A stretch of DNA of 64,000 nt, taken from NCBI RefSeq assembly GCF_014651495.1, contig NZ_BMWZ01000011.1:18266-82265 (forward strand), in the 5' to 3' direction. The stretch comes from Algibacter mikhailovii. Lineage in GTDB: Bacteria > Bacteroidota > Bacteroidia > Flavobacteriales > Flavobacteriaceae. Position numbers and translations under genes: made by a program. Position 1 is the stretch's first letter. The number at the start of each line of letters is the position of its first letter. Below, one piece after another: positions 32,789 to 59,700 of the stretch. Under the pieces are notes generated by a model. That model was not told where the DNA came from, searched no databases, and saw only the letters and a program-made list of their open reading frames with translations.

Positions 32789-32799
32789 AGCTCTTTATT

Positions 32800-33414
32800 T
32801 TATAGTTTATCCCATGTTTTAGTTTCACAATTGTATGTCTTAATAACCTTGGCAGGGTTTCCTGCGGCTACCGCATAGGACGGTACATTTTTGGTAACCA
32901 CACTTCCTGCGGCTATAATGGCATGTTTTCCAATGGTAACTCCTGGCACAATAACAACATTAGCACCAATCCAAGATTCATCATTAATAACTATAGGTTT
33001 GGTAGAAACGCCCTGGGCATGAATTGGACAATCCACAGCCTCGTAGTTATGGTTTAATCCAGATAAGACAACGTTCTGAGCCAGCCTTACATCATCACCA
33101 ATGGTAATAGGTCCAATTAAGGTATTACTCAGTCCTATGCGTGTTCTGTCTCCAATAATCACATCTCCTACGCCATTATTTATAGCTGTAAAGTCTTCTA
33201 TGGTTGAAGATTCGCCTAAGTTAAATTTGCGCCATGGCACGACATCCAATCGCGTACGCTTTCTTATACATGCACCTCTACCTTTTTTATGGACAAATGG
33301 ATTTACAAACCATTTTATCCAAAAACGGGGCCGGGATTGGTTTGGAATAACAATAGACCAATGTGCTATTTTTTTTAATTGTGGTGTTTCTTTTAGTATT
33401 GCCGTTAATTCCAT
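32800..33414 (-). CDS. Hexapeptide-repeat acyltransferase (WcaF-like)
   Basis: 204 residues with left-handed beta-helix repeats ('NNGVGDVIIGDRTRIGLSNT', 'IGANVVIVPGVTIGKHAIIAAGSVVTKNVP') and a probable catalytic His in 'LNHNYEAV'. Proteins of this group O-acetylate sugars of colanic-acid-like polymers. It overlaps the upstream glycosyltransferase gene by 10 bases. Confidence 0.85.
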   Translation of the reverse strand: MELTAILKETPQLKKIAHWSIVIPNQSRPRFWIKWFVNPFVHKKGRGACIRKRTRLDVVPWRKFNLGESSTIEDFTAINNGVGDVIIGDRTRIGLSNTLIGPITIGDDVRLAQNVVLSGLNHNYEAVDCPIHAQGVSTKPIVINDESWIGANVVIVPGVTIGKHAIIAAGSVVTKNVPSYAVAAGNPAKVIKTYNCETKTWDKL

Positions 33415-34619: not shown

Positions 34620-34623
34620 AATT

Positions 34624-35784: not shown

Positions 35785-35788
35785 CACC

Positions 35789-37000: not shown

Positions 37001-37042
37001 AGGTGATAAATTGAAATTATTGAATCTTATTTAGTAGCTGGA

Positions 37043-38005
37043 TTAAGCAAAAGCATTACGTAATTTGGCCTTCTTGCTTTTTAATTTGAATCGTAGGTCT
37101 AAGGCAAAACGACGAAGAAAAGGCATGTACCTTCCACTTTTTATGTTATAAATGATGGATTCTGAGTCATAAATCATTTCAAAATTCTCTGTACAGAACA
37201 CTGGTTTTTTGGTCAGTCTATTGATTTCTCTTGCTTGAACCAAACTACTTTCAACAAACAAATTATAAGTATGATCCGCATAGGTCGCTGCTTTGTGTTC
37301 TCCATGATTGTTTGCTTTTTGTCTTGCCATCATATCTGGCAAATCGAGCATCACAAGCTTGTCATACTTAACTCCATTTACTTTTAACCAACATTCTGTT
37401 TCCGCTCTATATTTTTCAAGTCTAGAAGTCACAATTGTTCCTATCTTACTTCCTGGAATGTACAAGGGTGCCGCATGCTTCAAAAAATCTCTGTATGCCT
37501 TCCCATCATCATTTTGGGCATCGGTTGGATCGACACATAAAACACCATCAATATCAAAACAGGATTTCTCTAATGCGGTATGATTAAAAATATTCCACTG
37601 AAAACATCTTGGTGTTGAAACTACTTCAAAAGCATAATCTGCTAGGTTTTTGTTTTCTGGAGTTACATAAACCGCACAATATTTTATATCGTATAAAGAT
37701 TCGAAATCCTTCAAATCATTTTTACATTGTAAAAGGGCAGCTCCTGATGCAATACTATCATCCACAACAAGAATGGATTTATACGCTGTGGTATTAAAAA
37801 ATTGTTTCCTTGCGCCTGCCTTATAGACAAATCCATTTTTAAAAGAATGAATGTCTGTATACGGTAAATTAAGATATAAGGCCAATAAATTTGCTGGCAA
37901 CATGCCGCTTCTTGGAACACCAACTATTAAATCAATATCCTTTGGGATAATGTCAAGTTTCTTAAGAATTATATGGTTTAAATCGTCTATACTTCTGTAG
38001 TTCAT
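37043..38005 (-). CDS. Phosphoribosyltransferase-HAD fusion protein
   Basis: 320 residues in two parts. Residues 1-140 are a PRTase fold with the PRPP loop 'ILVVDDSIASGAAL' and 'GVPRSGMLPANLLAL'. From about 150 a HAD-type domain begins with the nucleophile motif 'CFDIDGVLCVDPT' and continues to 'TSRLEKYRAETECWL'. It leads the glycosyltransferase run in the exopolysaccharide locus, and a copy of the 38-bp repeat lies just before its start. The substrate is unknown; making or dephosphorylating an activated pentose or nucleotide precursor would fit. Confidence 0.72.
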   Translation of the reverse strand: MNYRSIDDLNHIILKKLDIIPKDIDLIVGVPRSGMLPANLLALYLNLPYTDIHSFKNGFVYKAGARKQFFNTTAYKSILVVDDSIASGAALLQCKNDLKDFESLYDIKYCAVYVTPENKNLADYAFEVVSTPRCFQWNIFNHTALEKSCFDIDGVLCVDPTDAQNDDGKAYRDFLKHAAPLYIPGSKIGTIVTSRLEKYRAETECWLKVNGVKYDKLVMLDLPDMMARQKANNHGEHKAATYADHTYNLFVESSLVQAREINRLTKKPVFCTENFEMIYDSESIIYNIKSGRYMPFLRRFALDLRFKLKSKKAKLRNAFA

Positions 38006-38056
38006 AATAATAAGATTATGTCACAAACTTACGCTGACATAGCACCTAATTACATG

Positions 38057-38094
38057 ATATTTCGATGGATAGAAGTTTAGTGTAGTTGAATGGA
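38057..38094 (-). repeat. 38-bp regulatory-type repeat, copy 1
   Basis: Begins ATATTTCGATGGATAG and ends GTAGTTGAATGGA on the plus strand. It lies 52 bases before the start of the phosphoribosyltransferase-HAD gene and runs into the last codons of the Wzy gene, whose final residues it encodes. One base differs from copy 2 and one from copy 3. Confidence 0.75.
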
Positions 38095-39558
38095 TGCTTT
38101 TCGCTTACGTGCATCAATTTGTGGCGAATTAAACATGAATACCATACTAACATACATGAGTATGCCGGTAGGCATTTGACCAAAAACACCATTGCCGTAG
38201 GATGCCATCATGATGCCAGCCATTCCACAAGTTAAAGCTGTAATTTGAATCTTCAAATTTTCATCTTTTATTTTGAACAAGACATTACAAGCTCCTGTGA
38301 AAAGAATAAAAAACAACATGAAAAGGTAATACATCAAGCCAATTACCCCAGTGTCTGACCAAATCATAACATACCAACTGTCTGTAGCTGTATTTGCTAA
38401 AAAAGTATGTGGGGTAAATCTTTGTCCCCAATTTCCGGTGGCACCAACGCCACCACCAAAAGGACGCGATGCTAAGTAACCTTTAAGCTTTTTCTGATTT
38501 GCCAGGCGCACTTGGAATGAGGCGTCATTGGGATCAAAAGCAGTGCGCATTCTTCTAATCTCGGCATTATTTTGACCAATATTGGTATGAGCAAAAAACA
38601 CATATACTGAGATGCCTAGAATAGCACCAAGTAAAAGAATTTTGAGATTTTTTCTTAATATCAAGAATACAATCCCACCTAAGGCAGGAACGGCTATAGC
38701 ACCCCGAGTACCCGAAATCAGCATGCCTAGAAATCCAAATAAAGCCACGCTAATAAAGAAAGCCCTTAATTTGATATTGCCTTTTTTAAACAAAGCCAAT
38801 ATTCCAAAGACCACCCCTGCCTGAGCTTGCGAAGCTCCAAACTGCCCCGCATCAGAAAAAAAAGAGAAAACCCTTAATTTCGCAAATAAAATATGTGTTT
38901 CTGCACCACCTTGATCCAACCACTTTTGCTCAAAAGGATCAACGCCAAACTGAAACTGTTGAAAGCCCTTTAACGTTCCTAAAATGGATAAAATGCCCCA
39001 AATCACAAAAAAGGTATTCAAATCTTTTTGTTTATTGAATAACATAAAAAACAACGGAATTGAAAGCCATTGGTATAATGCCACGCCACGCATAGCGTAG
39101 AACCAAGCTTCCAAACTCTGTGCTTCTGGATTTCCAAGTTGTAGAATTATATAACCCATCCAAATTGATACTAGCAAAGTAAGTGAGGATTTAGCTTTAT
39201 GCCATGGTATTTTATTGGCAAAGCCTTTAAAAAACAGTGCCACATAAAGTAAAACCAGTAAACCATCTATAGATAGCCCCCAAGGCGCGGGAATATACCT
39301 CGCTATTCCGGTGACAAAAAAGCCCAAAACAATGAGTAATATTATGCCCATTTTGGGGTTTTGAAATATGGCATAAACCAGGCTTATTAGCATTAAGAAG
39401 CTTAAGGTTATTACAAACCCAATTACCCCCATTTTAGCAATGACCACTGTAATTACTGTTAATATAGCCAATACAGGAACAAGGATGTTTAAATTTGTAA
39501 ACCGTGAAGACCCCGCGTTAAATTCAAAAGGGTTTGTATAATTACTAAATAAGCTCAT
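38077..39558 (-). CDS. O-antigen ligase/Wzy-like polymerase
   Basis: 493 residues with about twelve membrane helices and a large periplasmic loop near residues 320-390 ('RMRTAFDPNDASFQVRLANQKKLKG', 'RPFGGGVGATGNWG'), typical of the Wzy/WaaL family. It overlaps the flippase gene by 4 bases. It probably polymerises the repeat units exported by that flippase. The last five residues (SIQLH) are encoded by the 38-bp repeat. Confidence 0.84.
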   Translation of the reverse strand: MSLFSNYTNPFEFNAGSSRFTNLNILVPVLAILTVITVVIAKMGVIGFVITLSFLMLISLVYAIFQNPKMGIILLIVLGFFVTGIARYIPAPWGLSIDGLLVLLYVALFFKGFANKIPWHKAKSSLTLLVSIWMGYIILQLGNPEAQSLEAWFYAMRGVALYQWLSIPLFFMLFNKQKDLNTFFVIWGILSILGTLKGFQQFQFGVDPFEQKWLDQGGAETHILFAKLRVFSFFSDAGQFGASQAQAGVVFGILALFKKGNIKLRAFFISVALFGFLGMLISGTRGAIAVPALGGIVFLILRKNLKILLLGAILGISVYVFFAHTNIGQNNAEIRRMRTAFDPNDASFQVRLANQKKLKGYLASRPFGGGVGATGNWGQRFTPHTFLANTATDSWYVMIWSDTGVIGLMYYLFMLFFILFTGACNVLFKIKDENLKIQITALTCGMAGIMMASYGNGVFGQMPTGILMYVSMVFMFNSPQIDARKRKASIQLH

Positions 39559-40937
39559 ATCTTACTGTTACTAATTTCAAATGCATTACATATCACTTGT
39601 GCTTTAACCCATAAATTTTTATAAAATCGATTTCCATTTTTGACTATTGCAGCTAAAGAAATTTTGAATTGTTGATTGAGAAAAAAACTGCCTATACCAA
39701 TACCTATACAAGTAAATACAAGTGTTGATAAAGCCACGAGATTAAGGGATTCGAATAGATAAACAGCAATCAAGTCTCCAATAATATTTGTGGTTAACAT
39801 AATTAAAACTTTGAGTGCATTAATATTTGGTTTATTTATACTATCCAAACCAATTCCTGTCATTCTATCAATGGGAAGTAGTACCCCATAGACCGTAAGA
39901 ATTCTTACTAGAGTAACGATATTGAAGTCGGAATAATTCGGACTTAAATATTGATCTCCAGATATAAGCATTACAAATTCTTCAGCAAATATGAAGGTAA
40001 ATAAAGACATAAAAATGAATAAATAGGTCAATGCCCCGGAGTAAACATGAAATAAATGTTGAACATCTTTAATTCTACCTTCCAAACTGGCTTTGGACAT
40101 TTTGGGAAAAGCAGTAGCGGTAAAACTTCTTAAAGGTATTTGTTGTAATTCTGTAAGCTTAAGCGCAATACTAAAAAGTGCAACCGCTGCATTTCCTAAA
40201 GGACTAATACTTATAATGATGACATCGGCATTTCTTAACAAATTGGTCCCAATGAGTGTAAATGTGCTATACTTCCCAAAGTTTAATAACATTTTAGTGG
40301 TTGCTTTCTTTGTTTTCAATATTAATTTAAAGCCATCCCAATTTTTTAAAATACAAACTGTAGAAGAAATTAAGTTTACCACTATTAATCCACTTACCAG
40401 CCATTCAATAGAAAGCTCGAGCCAAAGACTATTCAAAACTAAAAAGAAGAAAAACAAACCACTGTTAATGGTTTTTATTATCAATATTTTACCGTATTCC
40501 ATTTTTGCTTGCAGAACCACAAGAGCATTATTCCAAGGAAGATTTACAAATGCCAAGACAGGATACCAAGTAAAAAAAAGGACATAACCGGACTCGGAAA
40601 TACTGGCATTAAAGACATGCCTGATGGCCACAATAATAATTACAATTAATACCGTAGCAATAAGACTTACCAATGCGTTGGACCCTATTAATTGATCCCT
40701 ATCATTTTTAGAAGCCCCAGATAAAAACCGAACCAAACCGTTATTGGTAATCCCAAAACGCAACATTTCAACTAAAGAGCCCCCAGAGATAAACAAAACC
40801 CATTGTGCAAACGCATTTATTTCTAAGACTCTGGCTAGCAAAGCAAAACCCATAAATCCCATGGCAGCTATAACAATGTTTCCTGCTAAAGAAAGAAAAT
40901 TATCTTCCTTTATTATTTTTAAAAATATTGCATTCAT
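39555..40937 (-). CDS. Wzx-like polysaccharide flippase
   Basis: 460 residues with twelve to fourteen membrane helices. The N-terminus 'SLAGNIVIAAMGFMGFALLARVL' and the 'PLRSFTATAFPKMSKAS' segment are characteristic of the MOP-superfamily oligosaccharide flippases. It would turn lipid-linked repeat units to the periplasm. The gene lies 7 bases after the Wzc-like gene. Confidence 0.86.
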   Translation of the reverse strand: MNAIFLKIIKEDNFLSLAGNIVIAAMGFMGFALLARVLEINAFAQWVLFISGGSLVEMLRFGITNNGLVRFLSGASKNDRDQLIGSNALVSLIATVLIVIIIVAIRHVFNASISESGYVLFFTWYPVLAFVNLPWNNALVVLQAKMEYGKILIIKTINSGLFFFFLVLNSLWLELSIEWLVSGLIVVNLISSTVCILKNWDGFKLILKTKKATTKMLLNFGKYSTFTLIGTNLLRNADVIIISISPLGNAAVALFSIALKLTELQQIPLRSFTATAFPKMSKASLEGRIKDVQHLFHVYSGALTYLFIFMSLFTFIFAEEFVMLISGDQYLSPNYSDFNIVTLVRILTVYGVLLPIDRMTGIGLDSINKPNINALKVLIMLTTNIIGDLIAVYLFESLNLVALSTLVFTCIGIGIGSFFLNQQFKISLAAIVKNGNRFYKNLWVKAQVICNAFEISNSKI

Positions 40938-40944
40938 TTCCTTA

Positions 40945-43314
40945 TTAAATATGGCTGTTAGAATAAAATTGAAATTGAAATATGCGTTTTAATTGGCGTC
41001 TTGTGTTGGATCTAACTTTAGGCAATTCTCCTAGAATAGACTCTACCTCATTCAATTCTGTGCCATTGATAATAAACTGTAGTTTTGAGGGGGCTAATTC
41101 TTTGATATTGTTAAGTAGATTATCATCGGCCTCTGACCATAGGCGGTTAGACCGGCAGACTAAGATGGTCAAATCAGCAGATTCAATAAGGTCAACAGGG
41201 TAATTATGATCTGAGATATTTGGTAGTTCTATAATTACATACTCACTTTGAATACTTGTCCCTTCAGTATGAACTGTGAGCTGCTTGAAATTTTTAGCGT
41301 TGATAAAAGACGAATCTAATTCATATTTTATGTATTCATTAGCATTTAAATAATCTGTGACCTTAGATAAAAATGGCTGACTAAAATCACATTGCGGATT
41401 TTGATATCCTAGAAACTTATTGATGAATGTATATTTTTTGGATACAGAAATTCTTTTATCGTTTAATGCATGATTTAACAAGGTTACGGACTTGCCCATC
41501 CTCTTAAGTTTTCTAGCAATATTGCCCGCCATAACCGTTTTGCCTTCATTTTCTCTTGTACTAAGTACAACTATGGTTTTCACTTTATTGGTGGTAGGTT
41601 CCGTTTTAAAAAAGTGATTTATGTTTTTCAAAATATATTCCAACAAACGGTCCTGAATTTTCTCAAAATCTAATGGCCGCTGGGTAACAAAAAGCTTAGG
41701 CATGATCCCCAAATATGGAATATTTAACTTTTTTGAAGCCACCTTGGCATTCTTTAATGTATTATCAAAAAACTCCATGATTAAAATACTCCCAAGAATA
41801 ATAATAAAGGCCATAATGATTGCAGCAAGGATAATAAGCTTGCGTTTTGACGGTATAGGCTTTAGGGGATAATACGGGGCATCAACAGCTTTGAGATTGC
41901 TGCTCAATTGGGTATCCTGAAATTTCAATTTCGCTAGATTAAGACCATGCAAAATCTCAAGGTATTCTTGCTCAGCGACCTCAATCTCACGTTCTATACG
42001 TTTAAGGTTTGCACCTGCTGGGGCATAATTGGCATATTTTTTCTCAAATGCTTCATTGCGTTTGTCCATAACCACGAGCTTGGCTCTAAGATCTTCAGTT
42101 TCAACAACTTTATCCACCCATTGCGGCAGAACCTTAGTTATGGGTACTCCTTCCACCGTATTTTGAAAAGAATACAACTCACTGACACTTGATTCTATTT
42201 TTAAATTTAAATTTGAGGCTTGATTTTTTAAGTCTTCTAACTTCAAAGCGTGCGCTTCCGAGTCTGATGTCATAGCCTCCATCATGACAATTTTATAATT
42301 TAAATCACCTAAGCGTTTTTTGTTTTCTATTATTTGATTACTTCTTTGTTGAACTGCTTCTTGAATTTCCAATTTTTGCTCCAATTTCATCGTAGAGGCT
42401 TGTGAACCTGCTAATTCGGCAGTTTTTCTATTATACTCCACTTCCATATCCTCTTTCACAATGGCAACAGCCTTACTTTGCTCATAATAATTAATGATGC
42501 TATTTTCCTGATTAAATTTTAGCAGTCGATCTTCTATAGTTCTTAATTTTTTATGCGATTGCGCAAGTTGGGCTTCAAAATATTGTACCACCGCATCGGA
42601 ACCATTTTCTTTAAGGTCTTTGTACTTTCGGATACAAACCTCATTAAAAATAGCCAATGTTTGCTGGCATATACCTGGGTCTTCAGCTTCAAAACTCATC
42701 TTTACTAAGTCACTATTAGATACCCGTATGGCTTTTACTTTTGCCATGGCTTCAAGTGAGTAAATGGGGTGTTCAAAATTTAATAGGGAATACACAAAGT
42801 TATTGTTGTCACTTCTCATTAATTCCAGCAGCTTCACTACGGTTTGCTCATAATCCTCAACATAAATTGTACTTGGCAATGTTATGGATAGACTATCCTT
42901 TCTTAGATTAGAAGATGCATGATAATCGTTAGATTTTACGATGTACTTATAAAGTTCTTGAGGAACGTCTTCTTTCAGATTCTCATAGTTATTTTTTGAA
43001 ATAAACCGCTCATTAGGTGCGTTCAACAACAAATGCTGGCTTAATAATCTAACAGCAACCTCTTCTTGTGTCTCTCTAGAATTTATGATGTTAATTAAGT
43101 TATCGAATGCAATATTAGTGGCAAAATAATTAAATGATTTATCCATATCTATAGATGAACCAGAAGCTAAGCCCGTAAAAAGCATGGTTTGAGAATAATA
43201 CTTATGATTTGGGTTTATAGTTAATAGTATTGCTAAAACCCCCATAATTAAAGGTAACACCATTAGTATTACTTTGTGTTTTAATAGTAGTTTAATGAAT
43301 TCTGTAAGTTTCAT
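40945..43314 (-). CDS. Wzc-like polysaccharide co-polymerase with degenerate kinase domain
   Basis: 789 residues. Two membrane helices (about 14-33 and 505-525) bracket a large periplasmic coiled-coil region, as in Wzc. The cytoplasmic ATPase-like domain keeps a P-loop ('STRENEGKTVM') but Walker A' reads VTLLNHAL, without Asp, and the Walker B region is VIIELPN. The C-terminus has no tyrosine cluster (only one Tyr near the end). It therefore probably controls chain length without normal tyrosine-kinase activity. First gene of a unit preceded by a 38-bp repeat. Confidence 0.82.
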   Translation of the reverse strand: MKLTEFIKLLLKHKVILMVLPLIMGVLAILLTINPNHKYYSQTMLFTGLASGSSIDMDKSFNYFATNIAFDNLINIINSRETQEEVAVRLLSQHLLLNAPNERFISKNNYENLKEDVPQELYKYIVKSNDYHASSNLRKDSLSITLPSTIYVEDYEQTVVKLLELMRSDNNNFVYSLLNFEHPIYSLEAMAKVKAIRVSNSDLVKMSFEAEDPGICQQTLAIFNEVCIRKYKDLKENGSDAVVQYFEAQLAQSHKKLRTIEDRLLKFNQENSIINYYEQSKAVAIVKEDMEVEYNRKTAELAGSQASTMKLEQKLEIQEAVQQRSNQIIENKKRLGDLNYKIVMMEAMTSDSEAHALKLEDLKNQASNLNLKIESSVSELYSFQNTVEGVPITKVLPQWVDKVVETEDLRAKLVVMDKRNEAFEKKYANYAPAGANLKRIEREIEVAEQEYLEILHGLNLAKLKFQDTQLSSNLKAVDAPYYPLKPIPSKRKLIILAAIIMAFIIILGSILIMEFFDNTLKNAKVASKKLNIPYLGIMPKLFVTQRPLDFEKIQDRLLEYILKNINHFFKTEPTTNKVKTIVVLSTRENEGKTVMAGNIARKLKRMGKSVTLLNHALNDKRISVSKKYTFINKFLGYQNPQCDFSQPFLSKVTDYLNANEYIKYELDSSFINAKNFKQLTVHTEGTSIQSEYVIIELPNISDHNYPVDLIESADLTILVCRSNRLWSEADDNLLNNIKELAPSKLQFIINGTELNEVESILGELPKVRSNTRRQLKRIFQFQFYSNSHI

Positions 43315-43424
43315 GTTTTTCGTCTATTTGATGAACTAAGAGCAAATTTCATTGGGATGTATAAGACTCCTATTTATATTTACCTCTATGTCAAAATTAA
43401 AGGCTTAAGGAGGGTAAATACAGT

Positions 43425-43462
43425 ATATTTCGATGGATAGAAGTTAAGTGTAGTTGAATGGA
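43425..43462 (-). repeat. 38-bp regulatory-type repeat, copy 2
   Basis: Same orientation as the other copies and one substitution from copy 1. It lies about 110 bases before the Wzc-like start codon in a 265-base gap. A partial echo (TTGAATGGAACTA) follows shortly after it. Confidence 0.75.
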
Positions 43463-43579: not shown

Positions 43580-44320
43580 TTATTGTATTTCAAAGCCTAC
43601 CAAGTTTTCAAGTAGCTTTTTGGAAATTATAAAGTCTGACTTAACCTTTTGAAAGTCTGCCGAAATTCTTGAAGTCATATCAGATATTCTAACATACTCA
43701 GTAATTTCAACTAAACCATTTTTAAATTCCTTTTCAACCATTTCCATATTCACTTTGGCATTCCCAAGGTTTGTAGCTCTTATTTCTAATAGGTTTTGTT
43801 GTAACAATAAATCTTCATAGTAACGAATTACCATTTCTCGCAATTCATCTTCTTGAGATTTCACTAAACTTTTCGCTTGTGCAAGTTCGGCCTCAGCTTG
43901 TTTAATTTGCGATTTACGATTTATAACATCAAAGACAGGAATTTTTAAATATAACCCAACATTATAATTGAGTTGCTGGGTATTACTTGCCAAATTAATG
44001 GTGGCATTATCTCCAGAAATAGAGGAATAATTATCAAATGTTCCATACCTGGAATCGGCCTGTACACCAAAATTTCTGGTCCAATATTTACGCTTCGATT
44101 TAAGATTGGACTCTTTAGCATCAATTTCTAATTTCCTATAATTTACTAAACCATTGTGAACAAGCGCAGAATCAATTAAAATGCCTAGTTTAGGGATCAA
44201 TAGAGCAAATGATTCTTCTTTATGCGGCATCATGGACTTATCTTGACCTGCTGATTTATTTACCCCTAAAAGATGGGTAAACAAAACGATTAGTAAACTT
44301 ATTTTTTTTAGTGTTTGCAT
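43580..44320 (-). CDS. Half-length TolC-family outer-membrane efflux protein
   Basis: 246 residues from the ATG at 44320 (MQTLKKISLLIVLF), a signal-peptide start; an upstream in-frame start would overlap the sugar-transferase gene. The body resembles one OEP repeat: 'LYLKIPVFDVINRKSQIKQAEAELAQAKSLVKSQEDEL' and 'VNMEMVEKEFKNGLVEITEYVRI'. TolC proteins usually have about 430-480 residues with two such repeats, so this is about half. No Wza-type export channel is present in the locus, so it may help to form the outer-membrane exit. Role unproven. Confidence 0.72.
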   Translation of the reverse strand: MQTLKKISLLIVLFTHLLGVNKSAGQDKSMMPHKEESFALLIPKLGILIDSALVHNGLVNYRKLEIDAKESNLKSKRKYWTRNFGVQADSRYGTFDNYSSISGDNATINLASNTQQLNYNVGLYLKIPVFDVINRKSQIKQAEAELAQAKSLVKSQEDELREMVIRYYEDLLLQQNLLEIRATNLGNAKVNMEMVEKEFKNGLVEITEYVRISDMTSRISADFQKVKSDFIISKKLLENLVGFEIQ

Positions 44321-44328
44321 GGCTAATA

Positions 44329-45516
44329 TTAAACGGTACTTTTTTGAAATAAGGCAGGAATTGTTTTTAAAATGATGCGAATATCTACCCATAAGGAGTA
44401 GGTGTTATTTGCAAAATAATCGGCATAACTACTATCTAATTGAATACGCTCTTCTTCAGACATATCACCGCCTTTTCCTCGTAATTCAACTTGCCATAAA
44501 CCGGTAATTCCGGCTGGTGCTAAAAAGCGTTTTGATAATTTGTCTTGAGTAAGACACTCGGCCTCATATACTGGAAGTGGTCTGTTACCCACTATTGACA
44601 TATCCCCTTTGATAACATTTAGCAGCTGTGGCAATTCATCAATACTTGTATTTCTAATAAATTTACCTATTCGCGTAATCCTTGGATCATCAATAATCTT
44701 AATAAATGCTGAGTTCTTATTTTGAATCTCCTTCTTTTGATAGTTATACCAATAATCACAAATAGTGAATGTCTCAATATGAAGATTTGGTGAACACGTT
44801 TGATCTTCTGGCAATTCGCTACATTTAGGACATGGACGTTCAAAATTTATTGTCGTTTCAGTTTGCTCTTTTTGATATTGATTTTTTTGCAAGGCCAACT
44901 GATTTAACAACTTGTCTGAGCCAGATTTCATAGATCTTAACTTATAAAAATCGAATGTTTTTCTACCAACACGTTTGGCTACATAATACGCTTTCCCGGG
45001 AGACTCAAGCCTTATAGCCAAAATTATTAGGAGTAAAAATGGAGATAGTACGAGCAATAACGAAGAAGCAAAAACAATATCAAAGACTCTTTTTGATATC
45101 GGAAATTTATAAATTACACTTTCTTGTTCTGTCGTATTCAGTACTTTATTATTTTCCTGGGAGTCCCTTAAAGCATTTGCTTTTTCTATAATTTGCTGGG
45201 CTTTTGTAGAGGTGGTTACAAAATAATCATTAACCCCGCTTTCAAATGATTTCTTAAAAACCTGCGTATTGAATTCTCGTGTTAATAATATAAATGGCAC
45301 CTCTTTTAACGCTTCATTTTCTCTTAGTTTTTCAAACAAAAACAAACCATCATGTCCTGGTAAATTATAATTGCTAATAATCACCTCAATATCATTTCTA
45401 ACCTGAAATATACTCAATGCTTCTAGTCCGTTTTTTGCCGTAATAACATTTTGGTCATTGTCTTGGGCATAAGTAATATATGTTCTTGGAGTATCTCCCA
45501 CAAATAGTATGGTCAT
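44329..45516 (-). CDS. Pseudo-receiver fused to polyprenyl-phosphate sugar-1-phosphate transferase
   Basis: 395 residues from the ATG at 45516 (MTILFVGDTP). Residues 1-115 follow the CheY fold, but the phospho-acceptor Asp is Asn49 ('IISNYNLPG') and the conserved Lys is replaced ('DYFVTTST'). From about 140 comes a membrane helix and a WcaJ/WbaP-type transferase with 'KRVFDIVFASSLLL', 'FYKLRSMKSGSD', 'SIDELPQLLNVIKGDMSIVGNRPLP' and 'AGITGLWQV'. A Cys-rich insert (CPKCSELPEDQTC) lies around 228-240. The enzyme should start the exopolysaccharide repeat unit. The REC domain may act as an unphosphorylated protein-binding module for the adjacent response regulator's pathway. Confidence 0.85.
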   Translation of the reverse strand: MTILFVGDTPRTYITYAQDNDQNVITAKNGLEALSIFQVRNDIEVIISNYNLPGHDGLFLFEKLRENEALKEVPFILLTREFNTQVFKKSFESGVNDYFVTTSTKAQQIIEKANALRDSQENNKVLNTTEQESVIYKFPISKRVFDIVFASSLLLVLSPFLLLIILAIRLESPGKAYYVAKRVGRKTFDFYKLRSMKSGSDKLLNQLALQKNQYQKEQTETTINFERPCPKCSELPEDQTCSPNLHIETFTICDYWYNYQKKEIQNKNSAFIKIIDDPRITRIGKFIRNTSIDELPQLLNVIKGDMSIVGNRPLPVYEAECLTQDKLSKRFLAPAGITGLWQVELRGKGGDMSEEERIQLDSSYADYFANNTYSLWVDIRIILKTIPALFQKSTV

Positions 45517-45554
45517 GGCGCTTTTTTTTAGTTTTTCATTAAAGATTGTCCTGT

Positions 45555-45941
45555 TTACCAATTACTGGCATAATAAATAGGAAATAAATTCTTCTTCACT
45601 ACCTCTTCAAGTTCCACAGGATTAAAAGGTTTTGTTAAATAATCTTGAGCACCAAGTTGATAACATTTTATCCGTTCTTTGCTTTCAACCTTACCTGATA
45701 ACATGATTATAGGGGTGTGTTTTGTATACCCTCTTAGTCTTACTGCTTTTAAGAATTCAAATCCATTCATTTCATGCATTTGAATATCACTAATAATTAA
45801 ATCGGGTAGATTTTCATTTAACCATTCTAAGGCTTCCCTTCCAGAGCTTTTGGTTTCTACTTCATATTGGGATGACAAAAAATGTTGCAACAACATTTGA
45901 ATACTAAATTCATCATCGACAATCAATATTTTTTTCTTCAT
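45555..45941 (-). CDS. CheY-like single-domain response regulator
   Basis: 128 residues with an intact receiver: acidic pair in 'ILIVDDE', phospho-acceptor Asp52 in 'IISDIQMHEMNG', and Lys104 in 'YLTKPFN'. It is upstream of the pseudo-receiver sugar transferase in the same unit. It has no output domain, so it may act by binding a partner, for example the fused enzyme or a histidine kinase of the neighbouring operon. Confidence 0.88.
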   Translation of the reverse strand: MKKKILIVDDEFSIQMLLQHFLSSQYEVETKSSGREALEWLNENLPDLIISDIQMHEMNGFEFLKAVRLRGYTKHTPIIMLSGKVESKERIKCYQLGAQDYLTKPFNPVELEEVVKKNLFPIYYASNW

Positions 45942-46303
45942 GACATATATTTATAAAGGCTGTTATATTATTATTTAACAAAGACCTGATTTGTTCAAGT
46001 TCTACTATTAACTAAATTTTTAAGAACCAGTTAAGGTCTTTTTTTATACTACAAACATACATGCATGATGTCCCTTTTTACGAGATATTTCGATGGACAG
46101 AAGTTTAGTGTAGTTGAATGGAAGGTGTATTTTGACCAAGTATTTTTTACAACATAGTCGTATAGAGTATATCATGAACGCATGATAATCATCAAAGTAA
46201 TGTGCAAAGTACCCAGCATACTCTGAGGCAAGTGCAAATAATGCATCTACAATGGAGCAATGGCACGCACTTATTTAGATGTACTTAATATTGGTACTAT
46301 GGA
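45942..46303. other. Gap between the phosphorelay operon and the exopolysaccharide genes
   Basis: About 360 bases without a gene. It holds 38-bp repeat copy 3 and probably the promoter of the response-regulator/sugar-transferase unit. I see no clear terminator for the phosphorelay operon, so some transcription may read through. Confidence 0.5.
46085..46122 (-). repeat. 38-bp regulatory-type repeat, copy 3
   Basis: Begins ATATTTCGATGGACAG and ends TGTAGTTGAATGGA, one substitution from copy 1. It lies about 145 bases before the response-regulator start at 45941, in the same orientation as the other copies. Confidence 0.75.
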
Positions 46304-47020
46304 TTAAAGAAGGTTAAGTCTTTTCATTAGTTCAGGTCTATTGGAACGACTTACAGGGATAACATCCTTTTTAATTAAAACACTGTTATCCTCAATATCC
46401 ACAATTTTATTAATGTTAATTATAAATGACCGATGTACTTTAAGGAATAAATCATTTGGTAATTTATCTTCTATCTTTTTTAAAGTGGAATGTACTGTAT
46501 AATTTTTGTTTTCCGTTTTAACATAGATATAGTCGCCTTTAGCTTCAACTAAATAAATACTTGGTATATCTATTTTAATAAGGCGTCTGTCTATATTAAC
46601 ATATAAATCATTGCCAGAGTTATCATCAAGGCTTTCAGTAGTAGACGGTTCACTCTGCGCTGGCATTGTCGATAGACTCAGTGCTTTTTGCACAGACTTT
46701 TCAAACCGTGACAATGTTATTGGTTTTACTAAATAATCCACAATACAATCATATTCAAAAGCCTCTATGGCAAATTGGGTATCACTTGTTGTTAAAACTA
46801 TTTTTGGTGGTTTTTTTAAAGTTTGAATAAAATCAAACCCCGTAAAATCCGGCATATGAATATCTAGAAAAATAAGATCAACCTCATTTTGATTTAAATA
46901 TTTTATAGCCTGAATAGCATTAGGGAACGTTTTTATAACATTTACATCTGGGACTTCTAGACATAATTGTTCTATAATTGCTCTTGCTGTAGCCTCGTCA
47001 TCAATGATTATACAATCCAT
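46304..47020 (-). CDS. LytTR-family response regulator
   Basis: 238 residues. Receiver domain 1-120 with Asp53 as phospho-acceptor ('LIFLDIHMPDFTG'). LytTR DNA-binding domain about 135-238 with 'IYLVEAKGDYIYVKTENKNY' and 'FLKVHRSFIININKI'. It is the last gene of the phosphorelay operon and its only DNA-binding output. The 38-bp repeat upstream of the exopolysaccharide units is a natural candidate target, but that is inference. Confidence 0.92.
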   Translation of the reverse strand: MDCIIIDDEATARAIIEQLCLEVPDVNVIKTFPNAIQAIKYLNQNEVDLIFLDIHMPDFTGFDFIQTLKKPPKIVLTTSDTQFAIEAFEYDCIVDYLVKPITLSRFEKSVQKALSLSTMPAQSEPSTTESLDDNSGNDLYVNIDRRLIKIDIPSIYLVEAKGDYIYVKTENKNYTVHSTLKKIEDKLPNDLFLKVHRSFIININKIVDIEDNSVLIKKDVIPVSRSNRPELMKRLNLL

Positions 47021-47029
47021 AAATTACCA

Positions 47030-47347
47030 TTAAAGTTTAGATAAAAAGTTGGTCATGACCTCTAATACATCTTCAAATTCCTCCCGACCTAAGTCACTAC
47101 TTTCAATGAGATTATTTTCAAAATTAGTAGCAACTACATAACTTTTTTCAAGTCCTAAAATACTGATTTTATGTTTAAGTTTATGAACATTTTCTGCTGC
47201 TTCTTTGAATTTTCTGGATTCTATGTTTTTCAAATAGATGGCTTTCTCTTCTGGAAATTCTATTTTTATTATATCTAAAAGCTTTTGCTTAAACACGTCA
47301 TCACCACGTGATAGTTGGTCAATGTATGAGAAATTAGGTTGCTCCAT
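47030..47347 (-). CDS. Histidine phosphotransfer (Hpt) protein
   Basis: 105 residues, helical. The phosphorylated His is probably His55 in 'AENVHKLKHKISILGL', matching the HxLK core of Hpt domains. It lies between a histidine kinase gene (4-base gap) and the LytTR regulator gene (9-base gap), which suits a relay from receiver to regulator. Confidence 0.82.
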   Translation of the reverse strand: MEQPNFSYIDQLSRGDDVFKQKLLDIIKIEFPEEKAIYLKNIESRKFKEAAENVHKLKHKISILGLEKSYVVATNFENNLIESSDLGREEFEDVLEVMTNFLSKL

Positions 47348-47351
47348 ATAT

Positions 47352-48401
47352 TTATTTTCTTAAAGTGAAATAAAAGATTGATCCTACATTCAATTTAGAT
47401 TCTACCCAAATTTTCCCGCCGTATAACTCTACAATTTTTTTAACAATAGATAAGCCTATGCCCAAAGAGTCAGGGGTGTTTTCAAGTTTTTGAAAGGTTT
47501 TAAATATCTTTTCATAATACGTTTTTTCAATGCCTTTTCCATTATCCTTAAGTTTAAATAACCAGAAATCGTTATCCGCTTCCGCTGAAATTTCAATAAG
47601 CCCTTCTGCCTTGTTGTTATATTTTATGGCATTGTCAAATAAGTTTTGAAAAAGCTGTTGTAACCTATATTTATTACCTTTAATTGTAGGTAACTTAGAT
47701 AATTTGACGATTGATATATGAGGTGGAAGATGCATCATCCCAATGCTATTATCTAGTAACTTATCAATATCTACATCATAGGTTTCTGTTTCTGTCTTAC
47801 TAATTGTGGAATATTCTAGTATGCCATTAATTAAGGTATCCATTTTGGCAACATGGTCCCTAATAAGATTTATGTTATCATTGCCTTTATCATCAAGTTT
47901 ACCCGCATAGTCTTCTTTCAACCAACTTGTTAAGGCGTCAATACTGCGTAATGGCGATTTCAAATCATGAGAAACCATATGAGCATAATCACTCAATTCT
48001 TGATTTTGAAGAGCTAATTCACTTAAAAGTTTTTCTCTTTGTTTATTTATTTCAACAATCTCCTTAGTTTGATTATCAATAAATTCAACCAGTTTCAAAC
48101 CATCTAATTCAACATTTTCTAATTTCTGGTCTTCCGGAAGTTGATAAAACTTCAACGTTTCAATAACACGTTTTAGTTTATCAATAACCACTTGTTGATC
48201 TTCTGCCTCTTTTTTTAATTTTTCGTTGGCATCAAACAACTCTTCAGAACTTATGGCCATGGCGCGCTGCTGCATGACGTATTGTTCATCAAAATTGGTG
48301 TATGACCTATTTACAGCATCTAAAAACTGTGCTAAGCCTTCTGAAGACACTTGCTCTTCAGATAAATATTTGCGTATTTGCCGTTTAAGAAGTGAGTTCA
48401 T
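47352..48401 (-). CDS. Soluble histidine kinase 2 of the NO-sensing operon
   Basis: 349 residues without membrane helices. A long coiled-coil N-terminus (about 1-130) leads to HisKA with His145 ('YAHMVSHDLKSPLRS') and an HATPase domain ('NLFDNAIKYNNKAEG', 'GKGIEKTYYEKIF', 'GIGLSIVKKIVEL'). There is no separate sensory domain of its own. It overlaps the FIST gene by one base, as NosP-associated kinases do, so FIST may be its sensor. Confidence 0.9.
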   Translation of the reverse strand: MNSLLKRQIRKYLSEEQVSSEGLAQFLDAVNRSYTNFDEQYVMQQRAMAISSEELFDANEKLKKEAEDQQVVIDKLKRVIETLKFYQLPEDQKLENVELDGLKLVEFIDNQTKEIVEINKQREKLLSELALQNQELSDYAHMVSHDLKSPLRSIDALTSWLKEDYAGKLDDKGNDNINLIRDHVAKMDTLINGILEYSTISKTETETYDVDIDKLLDNSIGMMHLPPHISIVKLSKLPTIKGNKYRLQQLFQNLFDNAIKYNNKAEGLIEISAEADNDFWLFKLKDNGKGIEKTYYEKIFKTFQKLENTPDSLGIGLSIVKKIVELYGGKIWVESKLNVGSIFYFTLRK

Positions 48402-49534
48402 TATTCGCTAATTAGCGTTATTGTCATCGTTTGATTATGTAATTGGCAATTCGTTTCTCCATGAAAAGGTGCAATTTCTCCGTATGAATAAAAGCCACAA
48501 ATTGTGGTGTTATTACCCACAACGGCAGCTACTTCTTCTATTTCTTCTTCTACCCGTTGATCTAAAACCAGTTTTCTACCAATACAACTCACCAATAGTG
48601 CCAATTGAGGTTTATTTTTTCTCAACTCTAGAGCTTGTTTTGCAGCGCGTTCAGAGGCATTTGCAATATTATCTACATTAGTCATCATGAGCTGTGCCTT
48701 AGAGTTTTCTGGAATATCACCAGCAAGAATCATGGCATTATCAGCCTCATTAATATTTAAAATGGTTCTAACAAAAGATTGCTTTTCTTTGGTAGATGTT
48801 ACGGAAAGTGGATATAACAAAGCGGCAGCAGGCAAGGCATCTGACTTGTCTCCCAAATATTTTTTATATAAGTCTAATGCGGGATGATTATCTAATTCAT
48901 AAAGGACATTAGACCTAGACTTTGTAACAATTCGCTCTGGCCCAAAAGGGGTCCATCCGCCATGAATGGAAAAGGAAACCTCTAATGATTCTCCATAAAA
49001 ACCAATAGCTATGATTTCTCCTGACTTAGGGTTTTCATTGTATGAAGCCAATGTCTTTTCGAAGCGCGCAGCATCAGCACATAGTCCACCAGTTATAAGT
49101 GTATTATTTACTGTTGAAGAATTCATCCCTTTTGTTAATTGACTTCCATTAACAAAACTGCCCTCTGATAAAACAAAAATATACTTCAATCCGTTTTGAG
49201 GAAATTGGTTTACTAAGGCTTCCCCTGTTTTAAAACTATCTAAATCAGAACTTAAAATATTACTTGTTTTTATTAAAAATTTACTCCTTTCAAACTCAAT
49301 GGCTGTAATGGTAATGCTATCATCATCAACCCTATTAAACGTAATATCTCCGCTGGTTGAACCAAAAACAATATGTCCATCAGGAAACAATTCTCTAACA
49401 TCTTTATAAATGGCAGCATTTTCTAACAAATATCTATTTCCTAAGACTAAGACTAAAGGGGCTACAAGGGGAATATTGTCTGTTAAATATTCCCAGACAT
49501 GTGTTTTATTTCGTTTTAGTTGAACCGATTTCAT
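48401..49534 (-). CDS. FIST-domain sensory protein (NosP-like candidate)
   Basis: 377 residues covering FIST N- and C-terminal domains: 'SGDITFNRVDDDSITITAIEF', 'NTLITGGLCADAARFEKTL', 'AALLYPLSVTSTKEKQSFVRT' and C-terminal 'NNTTICGFYSYGEIAPFHGETNCQLHNQTMT'. FIST proteins include NosP, a haem-binding NO sensor that inhibits a co-encoded histidine kinase in several proteobacteria. It lies between two kinase genes with a 1-base overlap on one side and a 3-base gap on the other. Haem binding is not shown by the sequence. Confidence 0.85.
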   Translation of the reverse strand: MKSVQLKRNKTHVWEYLTDNIPLVAPLVLVLGNRYLLENAAIYKDVRELFPDGHIVFGSTSGDITFNRVDDDSITITAIEFERSKFLIKTSNILSSDLDSFKTGEALVNQFPQNGLKYIFVLSEGSFVNGSQLTKGMNSSTVNNTLITGGLCADAARFEKTLASYNENPKSGEIIAIGFYGESLEVSFSIHGGWTPFGPERIVTKSRSNVLYELDNHPALDLYKKYLGDKSDALPAAALLYPLSVTSTKEKQSFVRTILNINEADNAMILAGDIPENSKAQLMMTNVDNIANASERAAKQALELRKNKPQLALLVSCIGRKLVLDQRVEEEIEEVAAVVGNNTTICGFYSYGEIAPFHGETNCQLHNQTMTITLISE

Positions 49535-49537
49535 AAC

Positions 49538-51127
49538 CTATTTTTTTAAAGTAAAAAAGAATGTCGTTCCCATTTCAGGCTCACTTTCCAACCAAATTTC
49601 ACCGTCATGTAAATCAATAATCTTTTTAACTATAGAAAGTCCAATGCCTGTAGATTCTTTACTTTTATTCAGTGAATGAAATATTTTAAATATTTTATCA
49701 TGAAATTTCTTGTCTATGCCCATGCCATTATCACGAATAGACACTTTATAATGTGTAGGTAATTCTTCAGCAGAAATTTTCACATAACCTTTTTCCTTAT
49801 CAATAAACTTTATAGCATTACTAATTAGGTTTTGAAATAATTGGTGCAACTTAGTCTTATCGCCATTCACTTCGGGTAAGGTATTTTCAACCTCTACTGT
49901 AACATGGTCAGGTATATAAAGTATACCTATTAAATCATGTACTAAATGGTTTAAATCAACAGGGTGCTTTTCCTTATCTGAGAACCCAATACTGGAGTAA
50001 TTTAGCACATCTGATATAAGCTGATCCATTTTTTCAAGAGTCATTTCTATAAGGGAAAAATTCTGCATACTAGCTTCATCGAACTTTCCTTTATTATCCT
50101 CTTGAATCCAATTCACTAAGGCATTAATACTACGTAAAGGCGACTTTAAATCATGGGAAACAATATGTGCATATTCCTGAAGTTCATCATTACTTTTTGC
50201 CAGTTTCGATAACAAATTACCTTTTTGAATTTCTAAATTCTTTAAATCTGTGATATCCAAATGAATCCCTATAGATCCCACAACTTCCCCCTCCAGATTA
50301 TAATTTGGAGCAGCACTAATGAGCCAATGTTTCAATTGGCCTAATTTGTTTTTTATCTTTAATTCATAAGAACTAGATTCTCCATTTCGGCGTCTTAAAT
50401 GCTCAAACCTTATGGTATCGCCCTGACCTTCTATTGGTAAAATTCTCTTCGCTCTTTTACCAATGAGTTCCTCTTCACTAAAACCAGACATTTCACTAAA
50501 GCTTTGATTTACCATTAATATGCTATCCTTATTATCAACTTCCATTAAACCTAAGTTCATATTGGCTATAATCTGGCTATATTTCGCCCTTTCCGCCTCT
50601 AAGCGTTTTTGATATATGTTATCTAGAGTAATATCTCTCACAATGCCTTGAGCGGCTACTGCTATTCCTTTATCATAGATTATACTGGCATTTATATGGA
50701 CTAATTTCTCTTCATTTCTCCTTGTAATAATGTATAATTCAAAGTCGGTGATTGCGCCTTGTTCCAACAATAATTTAAAGGATTCTGTTACTCGATCTGC
50801 TTCTTTAGGATGCACCATTTCAAGCAAATTAAAACTTTCCTTGGCATCGCTAAAGCCCAATAATTTTACTGAGGCATTATTCATTTTTAGAATATTCCCA
50901 AACAAATCCATGATTACATAGGCATCAACAATATTCTCAAAAACCCCTTGTAATTGAGAGTCCTTTCGAGAAAGCAAATCCTCTAATTCAATATAAGATT
51001 TTTCAAGTTTTTGTTTGGCTTCATAAAGCTCTGCGGCCTTATCCTCAAGAATTTTTTCAGCCTGTTTTCGAGCTGCTTTTTCACGAGCCAGTGCGCGCCT
51101 TAATATGTCTAGCTCCTTTTGACTCAT
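49538..51127 (-). CDS. Soluble PAS-PAS histidine kinase 1 of the NO-sensing operon
   Basis: 529 residues, no membrane helix. Coiled coil (about 1-60), two PAS domains (about 62-175 and 180-300, the second with 'GLMEVDNKDSILMVNQSFSEMSGFSEEEL' and PAC-like 'SIGIHLDIT'), HisKA with His325 ('YAHIVSHDLKSPLRS') and HATPase. It overlaps the H-NOX gene by one base. Known biology: soluble kinases beside H-NOX genes are inhibited by NO-bound H-NOX. Confidence 0.9.
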   Translation of the reverse strand: MSQKELDILRRALAREKAARKQAEKILEDKAAELYEAKQKLEKSYIELEDLLSRKDSQLQGVFENIVDAYVIMDLFGNILKMNNASVKLLGFSDAKESFNLLEMVHPKEADRVTESFKLLLEQGAITDFELYIITRRNEEKLVHINASIIYDKGIAVAAQGIVRDITLDNIYQKRLEAERAKYSQIIANMNLGLMEVDNKDSILMVNQSFSEMSGFSEEELIGKRAKRILPIEGQGDTIRFEHLRRRNGESSSYELKIKNKLGQLKHWLISAAPNYNLEGEVVGSIGIHLDITDLKNLEIQKGNLLSKLAKSNDELQEYAHIVSHDLKSPLRSINALVNWIQEDNKGKFDEASMQNFSLIEMTLEKMDQLISDVLNYSSIGFSDKEKHPVDLNHLVHDLIGILYIPDHVTVEVENTLPEVNGDKTKLHQLFQNLISNAIKFIDKEKGYVKISAEELPTHYKVSIRDNGMGIDKKFHDKIFKIFHSLNKSKESTGIGLSIVKKIIDLHDGEIWLESEPEMGTTFFFTLKK

Positions 51128-51666
51128 TAATTTTTATTAATGATAAACTTTACTTCCGTTCCGTCTTCCTTTATTTTTTCGAGTACAATAGACGCCGTAG
51201 AATTAAAATGCTCAAACGTTTTATTCATTAAACCCAAACCAAAATGATGCATAGCCCTACTCGATTTATATATCATAATCAACCTATTATCGGTTTTTTC
51301 TAATACTTCAAACGTTGGCAATTCAGCATCTGGGTATATTTTCCGAACCTCAACATGAATATGATTTTCAATAGAAGATAACATCTCTATAGGATCTTTG
51401 TAGGTTTTTAACAGTCCTGGATAACTGTCTTCCAAAACACCAAAAAAATGCTCAGCATAAACAAGCAATAAGTCATCAATAGAAATACCTGTATTAGCGC
51501 TTAAATGCTGCAACAACTGCAGCATCTCTGAAAATTTATAGGTGCCTACAGAGGTATAAACACCCTGTGATTCTAAATCTGACGCATTAATAATGTTATC
51601 CAACATTTCAAGTCCAAATTTATCCTCAACCAAATCCAAAAACTCCGTAAATACTATTCCTTTCAT
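51127..51666 (-). CDS. H-NOX haem nitric oxide sensor
   Basis: 179 residues, normal H-NOX length. The YxSxR motif that grips the haem propionates is present at residues 133-137 (YKSSR). The proximal His is probably His104, by alignment of 'HIHVEVRKIYPDAELP' with the 'HDHLATIYPG' region of guanylate cyclase. 'GIVFTEFLDLVEDKFG' and 'HFFGVLEDSYPGLL' are further family landmarks. It should bind NO (and perhaps CO), probably without O2. It overlaps both neighbours by one base, between a CheY-like gene and a PAS kinase gene. Confidence 0.93.
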   Translation of the reverse strand: MKGIVFTEFLDLVEDKFGLEMLDNIINASDLESQGVYTSVGTYKFSEMLQLLQHLSANTGISIDDLLLVYAEHFFGVLEDSYPGLLKTYKDPIEMLSSIENHIHVEVRKIYPDAELPTFEVLEKTDNRLIMIYKSSRAMHHFGLGLMNKTFEHFNSTASIVLEKIKEDGTEVKFIINKN

Positions 51667-52076
51667 TATACTTTCTTTAATTCGTTAATACTCCAATACG
51701 CTAAAAGTTTTTCTATTTTAGACATATAATCTTCATATTTTAAAGGTTTTAAAATATAACCGGCAATACCTAGATTATAACACGCTAATAAATCTTTTTG
51801 ATTACTAGAGGTTGTTAAGATTATTGTAGGTATAAATTTTAAAACGGCATCATTTTTTAGAATTTCCAAGAATTCAATACCATTGATTTTCGGCATATTT
51901 AAATCTAATAAAATAATATCAGGTAAATCGTCTTTTCTTTTTAAAATTTCTAAAGCTTCTACGCCGTTATTTGCTTCAATAATTTTATGACCCAATTTTA
52001 AAGTTGAAATGGTTCGATTCAATTTCATAACTTCAATCATGTCATCTTCAATCAGTAAAATATTTAACACATTCAT
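51666..52076 (-). CDS. Rcp1-like single-domain response regulator
   Basis: 136 residues with 'ILLIEDDMIE', phospho-acceptor Asp58 ('IILLDLNMPKING') and 'GYILKPLK'. This is the first gene of the seven-gene NO-sensing operon and overlaps the H-NOX gene by one base. It has no output domain, so it may be a relay step to Hpt or a phosphate sink. Confidence 0.9.
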   Translation of the reverse strand: MNVLNILLIEDDMIEVMKLNRTISTLKLGHKIIEANNGVEALEILKRKDDLPDIILLDLNMPKINGIEFLEILKNDAVLKFIPTIILTTSSNQKDLLACYNLGIAGYILKPLKYEDYMSKIEKLLAYWSINELKKV

Positions 52077-52134
52077 ATAACTGTATAGTTTATCCTAATA
52101 AAAGTAAAACTACTCATGATAAAAAACAGTCCGC

Positions 52135-52167
52135 TTTCGATAGAGCTGCATTTAAATGTAGTTGAAT
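52135..52167 (-). repeat. Diverged copy of the 38-bp repeat before the NO-sensing operon
   Basis: Shares TTTCGAT at its start and TGTAGTTGAAT at its end with copies 1-3, at nearly the same spacing (33 versus 32 bases), but the middle differs. It lies about 60 bases before the response-regulator start at 52076 and between divergent genes. Confidence 0.5.
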
Positions 52168-52220
52168 AACCTTTTAGTGTCGACGAGTGGTTTTAAAATA
52201 CATTTATTAAATTTGTTAAT

Positions 52221-59525: not shown

Positions 59526-59700
59526 TCAGACAAACTTTTTATACTAAACTAAGACTTTTTTTAATCAGTTTATAGCATTCGCATCATTATTCTGAATACT
59601 ATAAAAAAGGGTCTTTATATTTATAAATTGACAAAAATGCACTAGTCAAATAATCAATTTTACTTCTTACTTGTCATCGCTAAAGCTAGACCCAACACCA

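Follow-up and report, generated by a model that had tools for sequence, protein, structure and literature searches.

The 64,000-nucleotide stretch of Algibacter mikhailovii DNA analysed here (NZ_BMWZ01000011.1; genome of 4.44 Mb), referred to as the window, encodes an H-NOX protein and a FIST protein, each beside a soluble histidine kinase, and the question it raises is how two candidate nitric oxide (NO) sensors in a single operon are connected to an output and what that output controls. The seven open reading frames concerned all lie on the minus strand from 52076 to 46304, spaced by 1-base overlaps or gaps of 3-9 bases, and the open reading frame calls and Pfam domains agree with the seven-gene operon described in an earlier note on this DNA. 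The operon probably encodes a phosphorelay in which both kinases pass phosphate to a stand-alone receiver (RR1), from there to a histidine phosphotransfer protein (Hpt) and finally to a LytTR response regulator. The predicted binding site of this regulator is a conserved direct repeat, present upstream of the operon and of three promoters in the adjoining exopolysaccharide cluster. Visible in the sequences themselves are the gene set and its conservation, intact phosphorylation residues, an optional and exchangeable FIST cassette, and operator-like repeats with their positions. The genes in operon order are:

51666..52076, minus strand, RR1, stand-alone receiver of 136 amino acids with phospho-acceptor D58 (Pfam Response_reg, 78.2 bits)
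51127..51666, minus strand, H-NOX haem/NO sensor of 179 amino acids with proximal H104, Y133-S135-R137 and an Ala71 hinge (PF07700, PDB code 6bdd, conservation)
49538..51127, minus strand, HK1, soluble PAS-PAS histidine kinase and predicted H-NOX partner (Pfam, two PAS, HisKA and HATPase_c)
48401..49534, minus strand, FIST sensor protein of 377 amino acids (Pfam, FIST_N and FIST_C), not a NosP equivalog
47352..48401, minus strand, HK2, soluble histidine kinase (Pfam, HisKA and HATPase_c)
47030..47347, minus strand, Hpt phosphotransfer protein with His55 (family alignment, conserved His, AlphaFold model)
46304..47020, minus strand, REC-LytTR response regulator with D53, the predicted operator-binding output (Pfam, LytTR 79.2 bits, Response_reg 65.3 bits)

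The residues of a multistep relay are all present, with non-hybrid kinases, a receiver Asp, an Hpt His and an output Asp. D58 of RR1 is conserved across 80 aligned rows, and RR1 is the probable first receiver, linking the kinases to Hpt. The single Hpt and single LytTR output described in the earlier note are borne out by the gene set, and the convergence of both kinases on them is likely, with the amendment that RR1, to which no role had been given, is probably placed between the kinases and Hpt. The window Hpt alone scores 16.8 bits compared with a Pfam Hpt cut-off of 24.6, and 39 of 40 aligned family members, the window's included, match Hpt at E<=1 (best 1.4e-6). His55 is conserved within a predicted helical bundle. 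The AlphaFold model from the single sequence is poor, with a predicted local distance difference test (pLDDT) score of 48; the model redone with 40 orthologues reaches a pLDDT of 92, and its best fit is to solved Hpt domains.

The neighbourhood conservation search proposed in the earlier note finds the gene order recurring across the Flavobacteriaceae. The module consists of receiver, H-NOX, PAS kinase, FIST with second kinase, Hpt and LytTR regulator, with the order kept in 80 H-NOX loci, which are the best 80 of 205 matches and are biased to close relatives. The FIST and second kinase genes form a cassette that is present as one type (FIST-A) in 49 of these loci and as another (FIST-B), a diverged FIST with a kinase having a different N terminus, in 6; it is absent from 24, where HK1 is followed directly by Hpt, and the remaining locus is cut off. 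Among 299 Flavobacteriaceae genomes H-NOX is found in 119, FIST in 98 and both in 79, and in 68 of the 119 H-NOX genomes the two share a strand and are no more than 6 kb apart, with FIST downstream in 67 of these. The recurring order and this proximity indicate that the arrangement is not due to chance. The statement that H-NOX and NosP are usually encoded at separate loci, as is the case in Legionella according to the accessible part of PMC11237717, fails in this family. Outside it, linkage judged by coordinates occurs in one (G446) of the seven H-NOX genomes in a 247-genome sample of the phylum. On a tree of 79 rows built by a quick method at least 16 switches of cassette state are counted, starred branches force 7 changes of the cassette-free state, and one supported Psychroserpens clade contains all three states.

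The H-NOX assignment is firm. HNOB (PF07700) scores 136.9 bits compared with a cut-off of 25.5, alignment with PDB code 6ocv places the proximal His at H104, and the YxSxR motif corresponds to Y133-S135-R137, each of these four residues being conserved in >97% of 79 H-NOX rows. Domain score, alignment and conservation thus agree with the initial description of an H-NOX with YxSxR and a proximal His beside a soluble kinase. The window protein is a predicted haem/NO binder with a solved close relative, matching PDB code 6bdd at E 1e-99, and the native Ala71 hinge is kept in 77 of 79 rows (rows under the length filter left out). In the accessible part of PMC7356049, which does not mention the operon, 6bdd is used as the Kordia algicida H-NOX, known as a crystallised protein (PDB codes 6bdd and 6bde). 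The same seven-gene operon is present in Kordia algicida OT-1 (L036), whose H-NOX, likewise with the native Ala71 hinge, is letter-for-letter identical to the aligned 6bdd chain, identifying the crystallised H-NOX as the sensor of an orthologous system.

The two kinases are closely related in their catalytic cores. Among 21 HisKA places in the genome the HK1 and HK2 cores are mutual best matches with 47% identity compared with 31% for the next, and the motif HDLKSPLRSI[ND]AL is common to these two only among the HisKA kinases of the genome. A tree of 56 rows (51 of 136 together with five other kinases of the same genome), built by a quick method and with long outgroup branches, gives support of 94 for the HK1 clade, 95 for an HK2 clade containing both types, and 99 for their joint separation from the five own-genome kinases. 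In 49 same-genome HK1/HK2 pairs the DHp residues at offsets -2 to +9 and +12, counted from the phospho-His, are the same in 90-100% of cases, and by these sequence comparisons both kinases likely feed the same relay. Speaking against this, offsets +13, +14 and most of +20 to +33 consistently differ between HK1 and HK2, and +10 and +11 are identical in only about half of the pairs (+11, 49%). Part of the partner-recognition surface therefore differs, so that different partners are possible and convergence is likely rather than proven. The kinases could be insulated, HK1 acting on RR1 and HK2 on another regulator, either LytTR directly or a receiver of the exopolysaccharide cluster, to give two pathways instead of a converging relay. 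The differing DHp positions and the two further receiver domains heading the exopolysaccharide cluster would suit such a division, but it is unlikely, given the sister relationship of the cores and a FIST-kinase cassette that comes without its own regulator in 55 of 55 cassette loci; no further receiver gene was found inside the operon in these loci, where gaps >60 bp were read, and one locus, at a contig end, is without RR1. HK2 residues 21-83 align with a kinase from Azospirillum whose gene lies next to FIST (32%, E 9e-9 in a single comparison), suggesting that HK2 combines an old FIST-docking segment with an HK1-like core.

The FIST protein scores 138.3 bits for FIST and 124.6 bits for FIST_C, both far over the Pfam cut-offs, and the HK2 gene (47352-48401) overlaps its stop codon by 1 base. 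The NosP-like label given previously stands as far as the FIST_N and FIST_C domains and the adjacent soluble kinase are concerned. It does not extend to NosP itself, as the score of 56.9 bits is so far under the NCBIfam NosP equivalog cut-off of 450 that the protein is not filed as NosP. The same model gives 50-55 for Azospirillum FIST relatives, 95 for Nostoc and 32 for the diverged flavobacterial FIST. C317, C363 and H366 are invariant in 50 FIST rows, and in a wider set of six only C317 is kept by all. A search of PDB sequences with FIST as a route to its identity gave nothing meaningful. FIST is a candidate NO sensor, and the protein may instead respond to haem itself or to some other metabolite, for example an amino acid, in which case the relay would join NO with a different input. 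This is a serious though somewhat doubtful alternative. The NosP-model scores are in keeping with it, as is a review whose accessible part describes FIST proteins as possible NO binders and names haem as the Vibrio cholerae CdpA ligand, whereas the position of FIST beside H-NOX in over half of the H-NOX genomes, the several FIST proteins reported as NO sensors in the accessible literature, and the three invariant residues, tempered by the wider set, point to NO. Tandem arrays of four FIST genes occur in other Flavobacteriaceae (G060:C15, G086:C1, G192:C68 and G224:C7), and those four genomes are without an H-NOX match.

A textbook regular expression for LytTR sites finds matches in 21 of 80 regions upstream of the operon and none in the window, and k-mer counting was used in its place. 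Counts upstream of RR1 give the repeat consensus CCATTCGTCGACACTTAA followed by ATTCATCGACACTTAA at a 21-bp period, which expressed as 9-mers is GACACTTAA-12 bp-GACACTTAA at RR1 promoters. This geometry of 9 bp, a 12-bp gap and 9 bp is that of published LytTR sites, described in the accessible part of PMC11347149 as paired 9-bp direct repeats 10-13 bp apart and exemplified in that of PMC6193735 by ACCACTTAC-12 bp-ACCACTTAC. An operator matrix from 67 instances scores >14 bits at 74 of 79 RR1 promoters, most by construction. In the window it identifies four sites:

52152..52190, minus strand, predicted LytTR operator before the operon (autoregulation), GACACTAAA-12 bp-TACATTTAA, 47.3 bits, exact half-site
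46083..46121, minus strand, predicted operator 141 bp before 45555-45941, 16.3 bits, exact half-site
43423..43461, minus strand, predicted operator 108 bp before the Wzz/Wzc-like gene 40945-43314, 27.1 bits, exact half-site
38055..38093, minus strand, predicted operator 49 bp before the phosphoribosyltransferase-like gene 37043-38005 inside the cluster, 23.9 bits, exact half-site

All four lie on the coding strand 49-141 bp before the ATG, and the best score in 30 dinucleotide shuffles is 0.8. The half-site occurs with zero mismatches four times in the 4.44-Mb genome, every time in the window, before the operon and the three exopolysaccharide-cluster promoters. A one-mismatch site at C4:17172 (~360 bp before a DnaJ-like gene) and ten two-mismatch sites were treated as chance, the reversed control giving 8 at <=2 mismatches. 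In the window (52120-52190), as at other RR1 promoters, the two repeats are followed after roughly the same spacing by a third, degenerate half-repeat of the CGAA type.

Across the 299 genomes the exact half-site is found 92 times, in 59 genomes, compared with 4 times for the reversed control; 78 of the 92 lie within 30 kb of H-NOX, all 78 on its strand, and H-NOX is present in 54 of the 59 genomes. LytTR orthologues were compared in 25 of the 299 genomes. Four of the five genomes having the motif without H-NOX keep an orthologue of the regulator (>=61% identity, same contig), ruling out a motif that depends on H-NOX, and seven genomes with neither motif nor H-NOX contain only LytTR paralogues of <=40% identity. 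Three relatives (G004, G263 and G099) retain RR1, kinase, Hpt and LytTR genes with the operator and no H-NOX, so that in the genomes tested the operator follows the relay core; a fourth (G044) has RR1, kinase and LytTR genes and a weaker site, and the stretch read there contains no Hpt. The repeats might be bound by some other regulator, such as the neighbouring AraC protein or an unlinked factor, with the relay acting elsewhere. Binding by LytTR is a prediction from sequence, the consensus departs from listed LytTR sites outside the CACTTA core, and one genome (G298) has the motif with neither H-NOX nor a LytTR orthologue, but the agreement in geometry and core, the orthologue accompanying the motif in four of five genomes without H-NOX, and the failure to find the divergent AraC gene in any of the 80 loci with their flanks of up to 9 kb make this very improbable.

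The predicted targets in the window are the genes of the exopolysaccharide cluster, which contains an initiating transferase, an outer-membrane efflux-type protein (OEP), a Wzz-like protein, a flippase, a polymerase and glycosyltransferases:

45555..45941, minus strand, stand-alone receiver heading the cluster, predicted target (Pfam Response_reg, 105.2 bits)
44329..45561, minus strand, REC with bacterial sugar transferase (initiating glycosyl-1-phosphate transferase; Bac_transf, 172.9 bits)
43580..44392, minus strand, OEP (Pfam)
40945..43314, minus strand, chain-length determinant/Wzc-like protein, under curated cut-offs
31601..40937, minus strand, rest of the cluster, with Polysacc_synt (39555), Wzy_C (38077), PRTase-like (37043), GT2 (35789), GT1 (33405), hexapeptide transferase (32800) and GT2 (31601); 34624-35874 left out

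Since exact half-sites lie only before the operon and three promoters of this cluster, the earlier guess of exopolysaccharide control gains support at the sequence level. The two in-cluster sites occur at the same places in two relatives (G031 and G094), and the Wzz-promoter site also in L081. The sugar transferase fused to a receiver-like domain and the preceding stand-alone receiver (44329-45941) would also permit direct post-translational control of polysaccharide initiation. An LruC/DUF4842 protein is encoded at the far end of the cluster (28952-30958).

A second kind of predicted target appears in the wider set of loci. Outside the RR1 promoters the 80 loci contain 62 sites >14 bits compared with 0 for the reversed matrix in 1.44 Mb. 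Homologues of a single protein, typically ~860 residues long, follow 42 of these 62 sites in 38 loci, in most cases at a distance of 49-80 bp. DUF6923 and a type IX sorting domain are present in all five homologues read and likewise in the L003 homologue. In 38 of 80 loci this type IX-secreted protein is therefore the predicted target instead of exopolysaccharide. The downstream stretches of G248, G286, G291 and G148 show no exopolysaccharide homologue beside the site, bar distant receiver matches (30-34% identity). Small open reading frames (93-128 amino acids), each after an operator-like site, are found ~550 bp upstream of RR1 in L008, L028, L029, L034, L040, L046, L056, L060, L063 and L071.

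Upstream of the operon, an assimilatory nitrate cluster (54568-61128) encodes a NarK-like transporter, a NasAB-like fused nitrate/nitrite reductase and a ferredoxin-rubredoxin protein, and nitrate assimilation rather than matrix production could be the main physiological target. Full-length matches to the NasAB-like protein occur in 51 of 119 H-NOX genomes compared with 25 of 180 others (p 3e-8, odds ratio 4.65, kinship ignored), and in 12 of those 51, among them the window's genome, the gene is found upstream on the operon's strand at a distance of at most 10 kb. However, this close linkage is missing in most H-NOX genomes and the window scan finds no operator before the nitrate genes, leading to their interpretation as a possible NO source and not a target; the nitrate alternative is accordingly rated as highly doubtful. 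Between the two, behind the divergent AraC gene, 53193-53930 encodes an MddA-like methanethiol S-methyltransferase (dimethyl sulfide formation). NnrU was considered for this protein (Pfam 26.7 compared with 24.7 bits) and rejected, and it is not used as a link to NO because NCBIfam places it near MddA (246.7 compared with a cut-off of 270).

Several observations weigh against a single relay acting through this operator on the matrix genes. Only the first repeat is strong at the exopolysaccharide sites, the second being degenerate, and no counterpart of the site before 45555 was seen in L054, L080, L081, G031 and G094, five relatives that share this cluster head. An exact match to the strict half-site is missing from 65 of 119 H-NOX genomes, a downstream site >14 bits from 32 of 76 loci, and the half-sites of G248, G291 and G148 score <9 bits by the paired matrix (stretches read). 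The nitrate-reduction cluster, which has no operator, is also linked to the operon, and a second Hpt-like protein is encoded in the genome. All steps of phosphotransfer and DNA binding are predicted from sequence.

In the relay as proposed, NO would bind the H-NOX haem and inhibit HK1, by analogy with the kinase pairs described in the accessible parts of PMC8738867 and PMC6769237, and FIST would gate HK2 in response to NO, or else to a different signal that is haem-linked or a small molecule. HK1 and HK2 would phosphorylate RR1, from which phosphate would pass to Hpt and on to the LytTR regulator, and the phosphorylated regulator would switch on both the operon itself and the matrix genes. According to the accessible text of PMC11347149, LytTR-type regulators are mostly activators that bind upstream of -35; with NO inhibiting HK1 and LytTR activating, NO would lower matrix production.

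Parts of this layout resemble known systems. Several non-hybrid kinases, a stand-alone receiver, a phosphotransferase and a DNA-binding receiver make up the Bacillus subtilis Spo0 phosphorelay, whereas here all components lie in one operon, with Hpt in place of Spo0B and a LytTR in place of a Spo0A output. The Shewanella and Vibrio H-NOX/HnoK systems (HnoX-HnoK-HnoB/D and H-NOX-HqsK-LuxU), as described in the accessible literature, share a stand-alone H-NOX beside a soluble kinase and a multistep output affecting biofilm; the Algibacter operon differs in having a non-hybrid kinase, no cyclic di-GMP (c-di-GMP) enzyme, and receiver, Hpt and LytTR regulator as separate genes of one operon. The NosP/NahK (NosK) systems, including V. 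cholerae NosP-VpsS-LuxU, have a two-domain FIST beside a soluble kinase and in V. cholerae signal via Hpt, again from accessible accounts, whereas the present FIST is far under the NosP cut-off, its kinase is non-hybrid, it shares an operon with H-NOX, and the output is a LytTR and not a c-di-GMP-related regulator. In Section 10 and Figure 6 of PMC8738867, FIST already appears as one of the Pfam families that lie no more than five genes from group 1 hnox in >=20% of genomes; a relay, cassette exchange, an operator or a target is not described in that section. A literature search, with most subscription papers outside its reach, found no earlier account of these or of the operon among the papers listed. 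The presence of FIST among hnox neighbours is thus already known, and the relay layout, the cassette exchange, the direct-repeat operator and the matrix targets are, within the reach of that search, new here.

The comparison of loci may indicate a relay core with a sensor port, a wider proposal that we regard as evenly balanced. The receiver, kinase, Hpt and LytTR core with its own operator code would gain, lose and swap gas-sensing modules (H-NOX, and two FIST types whose kinases share one core but differ at the head). Its connection to extracellular-matrix genes would persist throughout, to those for exopolysaccharide in some species and to that for a type IX-secreted surface protein in others, and NO-type inputs would act on the matrix by transcription, no c-di-GMP enzyme being present in the operon. 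NO-to-biofilm signalling is known mainly from Proteobacteria and c-di-GMP enzymes, and this operon of marine Flavobacteriaceae would unite both candidate NO sensors, a whole relay, an operator and matrix targets. H-NOX/FIST signal integration and the unsettled FIST ligand would become testable in a single reconstituted system, and the presence, absence or swap of the FIST cassette among close relatives offers a natural comparison. If the relay works as predicted, NO gas would set how these cells build their slime or surface coat.

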